Below are positions 51,985 through 60,472 of a DNA stretch of 64,000 nucleotides, in pieces. Both the position numbers and the translations under genes were made by a program. Every line of letters begins with the position of its first letter. Position 1 is the first letter of the stretch. The notes below the pieces were generated by a model that saw nothing but the letters and a program-made list of their open reading frames with translations, was not told the DNA's origin and did not search any database. The stretch lies in contig JAURVI010000005.1 in assembly GCA_030655515.1 (NCBI GenBank), positions 1-64,000 of the forward strand, read 5' to 3'. This stretch comes from Polaromonas sp. Lineage in GTDB: Bacteria > Pseudomonadota > Gammaproteobacteria > Burkholderiales > Burkholderiaceae_C.

Positions 51985-53463
51985 TCAGCGCGGCAGGTCG
52001 CTGCACCCCATCAGGAATTCATCGACCGAGCGCGCGGCCTGGCGGCCCTCTCTGATCGCCCACACGACCAAGCTTTGGCCTCGCCGCATGTCGCCCGCCG
52101 CAAATACCTTGTGGACATTGGTCGCATAACCGCCGGTGAAGTCTGTCGTCGCCCTGGCATTGCCGCGGACATCTTTTTCGACGCCGAAGGCCTCCAGCAC
52201 GGCCGCGACCGGGGCCACAAACCCCATGGCCAGCAGCACGAGGTCGGCCTTGAGCGTCTGCTCCGAACCCGCCACTTCCTGCATCTTGCCGTCTTTCCAC
52301 TCGACCCGCACCGTTTTCAGGCCGCAGACCCTGCCTTTGTCGCCGATGAACGCCTTGGTGGAAATGGCGAACTCGCGCATGCAGCCCTCTTCGTGGCTGG
52401 AACTGGTGCGCAGCTTGATCGGCCAGTCAGGCCAGGTCAGCGGCCGGTTTTCTTCTTCAGGGGGCTGCGGCATCAATTCAAACTGCGTGACGCTGGCGGC
52501 GCCATGGCGGTTGCTGGTGCCGACGCAGTCGGAGCCGGTGTCGCCGCCGCCGATGACGATGACGTGCTTGCCATGGGCGCGCAACTGGTCCTTGATCTTG
52601 TCGCCCGCATTGACCATGTTTTGCTGCGGCAAGAACTCCATCGCAAAATGGATGCCGGCCAGCTCACGGCCCGGCACCGGCAGATCGCGCGACTGCTCGG
52701 CGCCGCCGGTCAGCAGTACCGCGTCAAACTTCTTTTGCAGTTGCTCGGGCGTGACGGTTTCCTTGGCCCAGTTGGTGACTTTGGAGTCCTTGCCCAGCGG
52801 GTCTTTGGCCTTGCCGACCATGACGCCGGTGCGAAAAGTCACGCCTTCGGCCTGCATTTGCTCGACCCGGCGGTCGATATGGTGTTTCTCCATCTTGAAA
52901 TCGGGAATGCCGTAACGCAACAGGCCGCCGATGCGGTCATTCTTCTCGAACAAGGTCACGTCATGGCCGGCGCGCGCCAGTTGCTGCGCTGCGGCCATGC
53001 CGGCCGGACCCGAGCCGACCACCGCCACTTTTTTGCCGGTCTTGTGTTTGGGCAACTGCGGCTGGACCCAGCCCTCGGCCCAGGCGCGGTCGATGATGGC
53101 GTGCTCGATGGACTTGATGCCCACCGCGTCGTCATTCACGTTGAGTGTGCAGGCGGCCTCGCAGGGCGCCGGGCAGATGCGGCCGGTGAATTCCGGAAAG
53201 TTATTGGTGCTGTGCAGTATGTCGATCGCGCTCTTCCAGTCGGCCCGAAACACCATGTCGTTGAAATCCGGAATGATGTTGTTGACCGGACAGCCGTTGT
53301 TGCAAAACGGCGTGCCGCAGTCCATGCAGCGCGCCGCCTGCTTGTTGGCCTGCGCATCGTCCAGTCCGATCACAAACTCCTGGTAGTTTTTCAGGCGCTC
53401 GGGCACCGGCTTGTAGCCCTCCTCGATGCGCTCGTATTCCATGAAACCGGTGATTTTTCCCAT
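51985..53463 (-). CDS. gltD: Glutamate synthase small (beta) subunit
   Basis: The 492-residue FAD/NADPH subunit has the N-terminal Cys-rich motif [20 protein letters not shown] for [4Fe-4S] centres. Two dinucleotide-binding motifs follow ([33 protein letters not shown]). It feeds NADPH electrons to GltB. It lies 24 bp after gltB. Confidence 0.98.
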
Positions 53464-53487: not shown

Positions 53488-58281
<4,794 letters not shown>

Positions 58282-58353
58282 GGCGCACTCCTAGTCGGTT
58301 GGGGGGACAGTGCTGGCCTGCCGGGTTTCTCAACATATCTCGCAAGGATAAGC

Positions 58354-58382
58354 AGCATAGTGCAGTGCAACAACAATGCCAA
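58354..58382 (-). promoter_or_regulatory. Sigma-70 promoter for gltBD
   Basis: On - the sequence TTGGCA (58377-58382), 17 bp, TATGCT (58354-58359) matches consensus 5/6 and 4/6. The predicted leader is about 65 nt to the gltB ATG at 58281. The left terminal repeat of the RAYT element begins only 2 bp upstream of the -35 box. Confidence 0.7.
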
Positions 58383-58384
58383 GC

Positions 58385-58411
58385 AAAATAATTGGGGTCA
58401 GATTCCAATTA
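58385..58411 (+). repeat. Left terminal inverted repeat of the RAYT element
   Basis: AAAATAATTGGGGTCAGATT plus CCAATTA, with internal dyad AATTGG/CCAATT (58390-58410) and loop GGTCAGATT. It abuts the gltB -35 box. Confidence 0.85.
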
Positions 58412-58498
58412 AAAGTTACTCGACCCGATGAAAATTAAACTGGGGACACGATTGAAATAGTTTGAAAATCCATTCAAGTCAACGTGCTTCGAAGTGTC

Positions 58499-59197
58499 TC
58501 AGCCTGCGACCGGCTTGCGAACCGGGCGGCCAACCCGTGTTTTGCTGACTCTGCGCTCCGTGCGCTTTTGCAAGTCAGCAACAAAATCGGGGTCTCCCAA
58601 GGCCCAGCCGCTGAGCGCTGATTGCGTCAGCGCGGTCTGCTGCCCGGCAGGTACGCCCGCATGCACCATTTCAGCGTAGGCCGCTTCACGGGCAAAAGGA
58701 GTATTACCCAGCGTCCAGAACAGCGGATGCGGCGTCACCAGCCTGTCGCTGCGCAGCCCCGCGTAGTGGCCGTGGCTGGACCAGGGGTAGTCTCGCGCTT
58801 GAGCGACCAGCGCGGCGCGCACCGGGTTGAGGTCAATGTAGGCCATGCAAGCCAACAGATACGACTCGGTCTGGATCAGCGTGGAGCGGTAGCGGCCCTC
58901 CCACAAGGTGCCGGTACGCCCTTGTCTGTCGTTGAAATGCCGCACATAGCGCCGGCCCACGGCCTGCATCATTCGCGGCAATGAATCAGCCGATTCGGGC
59001 GTGACCAACAAGTGAAAGTGGTTGCTCATCAGCACATACGCGTGCAGTGCCACGCCAAATTTTTTGGTATTCTCCTCGATCAGGTCCAGCAGGGTCCGGT
59101 AATCGGCAGCAGATGCAAAAATGGCTTGCCGGTTGTTGCCGCGCTGAATGACGTGGTGCGGGTAGCCGGGAAGGCTCAGACGGGGAAGACGGGCCAT
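58499..59197 (-). CDS. REP-associated tyrosine transposase (RAYT, Y1/IS200-like)
   Basis: The 232-residue protein has GYPHHVIQRGNNRQAIFASA at the N-terminus, the metal-binding HUH-type motif NHFHLL (59-64) and the Y1 helix YLLACMAYIDLNPVRAALV carrying the likely nucleophilic Tyr. These define RAYT proteins, which act on REP-type palindromes by single-strand cleavage. The ORF is intact and reads toward gltB. The C-terminal about 70 residues are basic. Confidence 0.92.
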   Translation of the reverse strand: MARLPRLSLPGYPHHVIQRGNNRQAIFASAADYRTLLDLIEENTKKFGVALHAYVLMSNHFHLLVTPESADSLPRMMQAVGRRYVRHFNDRQGRTGTLWEGRYRSTLIQTESYLLACMAYIDLNPVRAALVAQARDYPWSSHGHYAGLRSDRLVTPHPLFWTLGNTPFAREAAYAEMVHAGVPAGQQTALTQSALSGWALGDPDFVADLQKRTERRVSKTRVGRPVRKPVAG

Positions 59198-59227
59198 GAC
59201 GATGTGCGCGGTGGTTTGGCGCCATCA

Positions 59228-59255
59228 TAATTGGAATCTGACCCCCAATTATTTT
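59228..59255 (-). repeat. Right terminal inverted repeat of the RAYT element
   Basis: TAATTGGAATCTGACCCCCA plus ATTATTTT, inverted relative to the left end, with one additional C in the C-run. It ends 2 bp before the dgt stop codon, so the insertion just spares dgt. Confidence 0.85.
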
Positions 59256-59257
59256 CA

Positions 59258-60472
59258 TCAAGCCGGAAACGCCACGCGGCCATTCAGGCGCTCGTGTTCT
59301 TTGGTGGCAAAACGGTCCGTCATGCCGGCAATGTAATCGGCCACCACACGTCCGGGTTTGGCCTGGCGTTTTGAGCTCGCGGTCGGGCTGCTTTCCAGCC
59401 GGTCAAACCGGTCGGTGTGCGCCTGCGGCATCTGCGCCGGATCGGCCATGTAGGCTGCAAACAGGTCGCGCACCACCTGCCGGGCGGTTTGCGTGGTTTC
59501 GACCACCTGCGGATGGCGGTATAAATTTTGCAGCAGAAAACGCTTGAGGGATGAGGACCTCAAGGCCATTTCATCACTGAAGCAGACCAGCGGCGGGCTT
59601 TCGCGCACGGCCTGCACGCTGTCCGGGGCAGCATCCAGCAAGGCCGCGCGGGTGGCGTCCATCACATCGTAGACCTGGGCGCTGAGCATGCGGCGTATGG
59701 TTTCGAACAGCAGGCGGCGACCCTGCAAGCCGGGGTGCCGGGCCAGCGCTTCGCGGCTGTAGCGGTCGAACAGGTCCACCTCTTTGAGCTGCGCCAGGCT
59801 GAGCAGGCCGGAGCGCACGCCGTCGTCGATATCGTGGGCGTTGTAGGCAATCTCGTCGGCCAGATTGGTCAGTTGGGCTTCCAGGCTGGGCTGCAGTGCT
59901 GGCGGTGTGGCGCCCGATGGCGGCAGAAAACGCCGTGCGACGCCATCTGGTTCACGCTCGCTGATGCGCCGGGCGTTGCGGCGCGAGCAATGCTTGAGAA
60001 TGCCTTCGCGGGTTTCAAACGACAGGTTCAGGCCGTCATAGTCCGGGTAGCGCTCTTCCAGCGAGTCCACCACGCGCAGGCTTTGCAGATTGTGTTCGAA
60101 CCCGGCGCTGTCCGGGTCATGGCTTTTCAAGCAGGCGTTCAGCGCGTCCTGCCCGGCGTGGCCGAAGGGCGTGTGGCCGAGGTCGTGGGCCAGCGCGATG
60201 GCTTCGACCAGGTCTTCATTCAAGCGCAGTGTGCGGGCAATGGAGCGGCCGAGTTGGGCAACTTCGAGGGAGTGCGTGAGCCGGGTGCGGAACAAATCGC
60301 CTTCGTGGTTCAAAAATACCTGGGTCTTGTAGACCAGCCGGCGAAATGCGGTGGAATGCACAATCCGGTCGCGGTCGCGTTGAAAATCGGAGCGGGTCGG
60401 CGCCGCCGGCTCCGGGTAGCGGCGACCGCGCGACTGGGCCGGGTCACAGGAGTAAGGTGCCAGGATCGTCAT
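59258..60472 (-). CDS. dgt: dGTPase-like HD-domain triphosphohydrolase
   Basis: The 404-residue protein has the HD metal site: His67 in RTRLTHSLEVAQLGRSIAR and His96-Asp97 in AIALAHDLGHTPFGHAGQDA. This matches the Dgt-like subfamily that removes triphosphate from dNTPs. The N-terminal RSDFQRDRDRIVHSTAFRRL is conserved. It lies downstream of aroB in the usual aroK-aroB-dgt order. Confidence 0.95.
   Translation of the reverse strand: MTILAPYSCDPAQSRGRRYPEPAAPTRSDFQRDRDRIVHSTAFRRLVYKTQVFLNHEGDLFRTRLTHSLEVAQLGRSIARTLRLNEDLVEAIALAHDLGHTPFGHAGQDALNACLKSHDPDSAGFEHNLQSLRVVDSLEERYPDYDGLNLSFETREGILKHCSRRNARRISEREPDGVARRFLPPSGATPPALQPSLEAQLTNLADEIAYNAHDIDDGVRSGLLSLAQLKEVDLFDRYSREALARHPGLQGRRLLFETIRRMLSAQVYDVMDATRAALLDAAPDSVQAVRESPPLVCFSDEMALRSSSLKRFLLQNLYRHPQVVETTQTARQVVRDLFAAYMADPAQMPQAHTDRFDRLESSPTASSKRQAKPGRVVADYIAGMTDRFATKEHERLNGRVAFPA

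Follow-up and report, generated by a model that had tools for sequence, protein, structure and literature searches.

The window, by which we mean the whole 64,000-nt stretch of Polaromonas sp. DNA analysed here, carries on its minus strand the gene order pilQ-aroK-aroB-dgt-RAYT-gltB-gltD, in which a gene for a REP-associated tyrosine transposase (RAYT) stands between dgt and the two glutamate synthase genes. The transposase gene is directed toward gltB, as the first-pass annotation had stated, and is accompanied by three repeat-type sites and a promoter:

58499..59197, minus strand: RAYT/TIRYT-type Y1 transposase gene, 232 aa, with the HUH motif H60-F61-H62, the catalytic tyrosine Y120, a C-terminal helical extension and a GRP tail
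58385..58411, minus strand: M2, the gltB-side repeat, TAATTGGAATCTGACCCCAATTATTTT on the minus strand, 2 nt from the -35 box
58430..58457, minus strand: M1, the second repeat-type site, TTTCAATCGTGTCCCCAGTTTAATTTTC on the minus strand, with its core lying 48 nt upstream of that of M2
58377..58382, minus strand: -35 box of the gltB promoter, TTGGCA
58354..58359, minus strand: -10 box of the gltB promoter, TATGCT
59228..59255, plus strand: inverted counterpart of M2 on the far side, 5′ of RAYT
53488..58281, minus strand: gltB, glutamate synthase large subunit
51985..53463, minus strand: gltD, glutamate synthase small subunit
59258..60472, minus strand: dgt, dGTP triphosphohydrolase, the upstream neighbour of RAYT

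The gltB-side repeat is 27 nt long and reads AAAATAATTGGGGTCAGATTCCAATTA. The far repeat is inverted relative to it and differs by one inserted G, and the dgt stop codon lies 2 nt from its end. M1, which the first-pass annotation did not include, has its GGGGACA core at 58442-58448. The gltB promoter reads TTGGCA (58382-58377), a 17-nt spacer and TATGCT (58359-58354) on the minus strand, and is the sole promoter-like site within 58200-59400, where shuffled sequences would be expected to give 0.4; the earlier placement of its -35 box 2 nt from the end of the repeat proved correct. No intrinsic terminator was found at the repeat on the gltB strand. The promoter spacer (58360-58375) holds a family-conserved TGCTGCRnYGCAG-like palindrome (TTGCACTGCA in the window), perhaps the site of another regulator. 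Upstream of the RAYT start, at 59200-59228, is a TATSATGGCGC block that is common to many congeners even without the far repeat and is possibly RAYT’s own -10 element.

The window protein matched NF047646 (REP-associated tyrosine transposase; E 2e-24, 86.1 bits against a cut-off of 80) and Pfam Y1_Tnp (E 3e-12, 47 bits against a cut-off of 23), and both its HUH motif and its catalytic tyrosine are present. The solved structure closest to its AlphaFold2 model (mean pLDDT 87.6, with a low-confidence tail) was that of the Escherichia coli RAYT (4ER8; E 1.3e-8), with IS200/IS605 transposases next, and the model has extra helices at residues ~158-220. RAYT group 1 is reportedly the class of Bertels et al. 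2017. To judge from its length, C-terminal extension and repeat motif, the window RAYT probably belongs to that group, or to subclass 2.1 (PMC6006769). Both ends of the element satisfy the TIRYT/TIRtron motif GGGGWSAS (GGGGTCAG), as does the M1 core (GGGGACAC); such repeats together with a tyrosine transposase are the definition of TIRYT/TIRtrons (Di Nocera et al., 2013, PMC3733652).

Conservation of RAYT beside gltB

We found RAYT directly upstream of gltB in 20 genomes of the window’s genus, the window included, with extra sequence between dgt and RAYT in some congeners. Across the window’s family, sampled at about one genome per genus, RAYT and gltB were neighbours on one strand in 115 of 121 genomes, separated by a gap of 135-1118 nt (median 205). 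In three of the other genomes (G108, G122 and G125) the contig breaks off at the gene, and two (G118 and G131) had no match for either RAYT or gltB, leaving G143 as the one true exception. Named loci from Polaromonas, Rhodoferax, Ramlibacter, Curvibacter, Hydrogenophaga and others gave the same picture, with adjacency in 78 of 80 and the other two ending before gltB. RAYT also lies upstream of gltB in six other families of the order (f3, f4, f8, f10, f18 and f32), and in this wider set the two genes can stand farther apart, by 3.8 kb in G199 and about 1.5 kb in G196.

The first-pass annotation had suggested that insertion of the element may have replaced activator sites upstream of gltB. The clean terminal inverted repeats in the window would suit a recent insertion of this kind. 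No empty site was found among genus or family relatives with a contiguous region, and RAYT, M1, M2 and the promoter are conserved together in about 114 genera. Synteny across the family and into other families contradicts a recent insertion beside gltB, and we give virtually no weight to one in this lineage, as the whole family and other families share the gene, the sites and the promoter. The proposed comparison with relatives that lack the element reached distant families only, whose gltB upstream regions are without M1 and M2 and bear little likeness to the window. The earlier proposal is supported in so far as it connects the element with transcription of gltB; a recent displacement of activator sites is not supported.

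Site geometry at the gltB promoter

The spacer between RAYT and gltB holds M1 (TGTCCCYAATTWAAT) and M2 (AATTGGAATCTGACCCCAATTAWTT), with a core-to-core spacing of 48-50 nt in 79 of the 80 genomes in which it could be measured. The promoter is fixed relative to these sites: 93 of 109 genomes have TTG at +18/19 from the M2 core followed 16-18 nt on by TAnnnT, compared with 0.21 expected from shuffling. In genomes with a catalytically intact RAYT and in those with a dead one alike, M1, M2 and the -35 and -10 boxes stand out as peaks of conservation. Outside the family, the strict site pattern occurred in 18 of 21 genomes with RAYT and in none of 14 without it (Fisher 3e-7); at least two of the three remaining RAYT-bearing genomes have variant sites by eye. 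A conserved operator candidate thus lies at a fixed distance from the promoter and co-occurs with the RAYT gene.

This distribution bears on two readings that leave the transposase protein out. According to the first, the repeats were exapted in cis as promoter parts, M2 serving as an AT-rich, UP-like element by the -35 box, and RAYT was retained for some other reason or is hitchhiking. M2 is indeed AT-rich at the -35 junction and fixed in position, but CCC cores such as those conserved in M1 and M2 are foreign to UP-elements, and genomes without RAYT are without the sites. We consider exaptation of this kind unlikely. In the second, another transcription factor, such as a nitrogen regulator, occupies M1 and M2 and RAYT is irrelevant, or the promoter depends on sigma-54. 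TTGGCATTGTTGTTGCA in the window is compatible with -24/-12 spacing, but the -24 GG is lost in most genera, whereas the -35 TTG and the -10 TAnnnT at 17 nt are kept, and we rejected a sigma-54 promoter as one that fits the window and not the family. A different factor is hard to square with the match of M1 and M2 to the consensus for repeats that accompany transposases of this type, similar repeats being found 5′ of many intact copies; we hold this second reading to be very improbable.

Covariation in the M2 dyad showed a modest excess (744 vs 679 pairs) that we do not take as proof. Since M2 stands upstream of the promoter, an effect by way of the gltB leader RNA is unlikely.

The strict M1..M2 pair was present in 9 of 24 genomes searched, and in eight of the nine it was single-copy and at gltB. 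The ninth (G031) has three strict pairs; in this genome of another family, an M1-M2-like pair lies away from gltB at G031:C1:305592-305639 and is a possible second target. Copies of the strict M2 pattern off the gltB promoter occurred in some catalytically intact genomes (G000, the window genome, and G149, G114, G054 and G106), while in the dead genomes tested the gltB copy was the only one, where the pattern matched at all.

Catalytic residues and repeat mobility

Of 115 orthologues, 49 (43%) have lost at least one of two features, the catalytic tyrosine and the HxH motif, and 34 have lost both. On the tree this amounts to about 12 changes between catalytically intact and dead states. The gene itself persists, 113 of the 115 orthologues encoding 220-249 aa. 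In one genus (g123), RAYT is catalytically dead in all 11 species, yet the ORF and both M1 and M2 are retained, and close pairs within the genus gave dN/dS values of 0.10-0.20 by a simple counting method. The residues retained across orthologues instead of the catalytic ones include R3, R6, Q78, R82, R102, S141, G164, T166, R170 and a C-terminal GRP, which is RGRP in many members and may be likened to an AT-hook. Near-full-length reading frames under purifying selection even when catalytically dead also count against exaptation of the repeats in cis, under which a hitchhiking gene should decay.

The gltB-side motif is present with 62 of 66 catalytically intact and 46 of 49 dead copies, compared with 32 of 66 and 5 of 49 for the far-side repeat (raw counts, phylogeny aside). 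When phylogeny was considered, the association between catalytic death and loss of the far repeat was not significant, with just 4 supported independent pairs. The true exception to adjacency, G143, carries a dead RAYT on another contig while its gltB promoter retains M1- and M2-type sites, as would be expected of a trans-acting factor.

The repeat core of the element has 10 exact matches in the 2.65 Mb of the window genome, among them one REPIN-like dimer. This dimer, a 68-nt inverted pair of M2 repeats, lies inside a coding gene that by eye resembles the chaperone HslO/Hsp33 (L064, about 1018-1087; G000:C1:19318-19385), and suggests that the repeat has been mobilised in the window genome in the past. 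More single repeat cores lie at the centres of L069 and L076, at least one of them apparently within a coding region (AAATTGGGGTCAGATTCGAATTT in L076), and a second Y1 transposase of the window genome, at G000:C13:10929-11563, appears to be frame-broken.

These copies raise the alternative of a still-selfish or REPIN-serving RAYT (a TIRtron) that came to lie at gltB by chance and has been inherited vertically. The intact HUH motif and tyrosine of the window protein, the repeats on both its flanks, and the dispersed dimer and few single copies would all suit such an element. It would leave unexplained the 43% of sampled genomes that have lost catalytic residues and still keep the gene and the gltB-side sites, as well as the constant position and the scarcity of extra copies, and we regard it as decidedly improbable. 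Selfish activity and regulation may nonetheless coexist: because its catalytic residues and both flanking repeats are intact and a REPIN-like dimer lies elsewhere in the genome, the window RAYT may still move repeats as well as regulate.

A candidate regulator of gltBD

Since the gene has been kept at gltB with a fixed site pair, often after loss of the cutting residues, a role as a regulator is probable. From these sequence comparisons, we propose that a TIRYT/RAYT transposase was domesticated and now regulates gltBD by binding DNA, a reading to which we give a probability of about 0.68. An ancestral TIRYT-type element, comprising RAYT and GGGGWSA-type repeats, would have been placed upstream of gltB before several Burkholderiales families split. 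Its gltB-side repeats would then have become a fixed two-site operator, with M1 ~48 nt upstream of M2 and M2 touching the -35 box, while the transposase stayed on to regulate gltBD through sequence-specific DNA binding. We infer that the RAYT protein binds M1 and M2 in vivo and that initiation from the gltB promoter is under its control. M2 lies at roughly -40 to -65 from the predicted gltB start, and because it adjoins the -35 box, its position suggests an activator or UP-element-like effect rather than a promoter-blocking repressor. The fixed 48-nt spacing similarly suggests a defined protein-DNA assembly at M1 and M2. We lean, by a little over even odds, toward the wider reading in which a RAYT/TIRYT HUH transposase has become a dedicated glutamate synthase transcription factor, with former transposon ends as its two-site operator, and is a regular component of the control of nitrogen assimilation in several Burkholderiales families.

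Why bacteria retain RAYTs is a standing question, and a promoter or transcription-factor role has so far been speculative. The gltB locus makes the regulator idea testable, as it offers natural dead copies, a fixed operator candidate and a single main target gene. If the idea is true, proteins now labelled transposases by annotation models would include a new regulator of central nitrogen metabolism. In open-licence papers, we found no link between gltB and a RAYT or transposase.

The nearest known systems are the TIRYT/TIRtrons (PMC3733652; subclass 2.1 of Quentin et al., 2018, PMC6006769), with which the locus shares a Y1 HUH transposase with a C-terminal extension, GGGGWSAS inverted repeats and low copy number. 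Unlike these, the gltB locus has a fixed position across many genera and a fixed two-site geometry on a host promoter, and its RAYT has often lost catalytic residues while the gene and sites are retained. The tree of Quentin et al. (2018, PMC6006769) was restricted to proteins carrying both motifs, to keep out pseudogenes that could distort it. The E. coli TnpAREP/RAYT with its REP/BIME sequences (PDB 4ER8) has the fold, as the best structural match, and the HUH-Y active site in common with the window protein, but its REPs are GTAG-tagged, whereas the gltB-locus element has repeats of the GGGGWSA kind, extra C-terminal helices and adjacency to gltB. A RAYT acting as a transcription factor was put forward, as speculation only, by Bertels and Rainey (2011), as cited in PMC8049555. 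As that citation presents it, their hypothesis shares with ours the idea that a RAYT and its repeats form a system of regulator and sites, but concerns dispersed REPINs acting partly at the RNA level, whereas the gltB locus presents one conserved promoter and natural catalytically dead variants.
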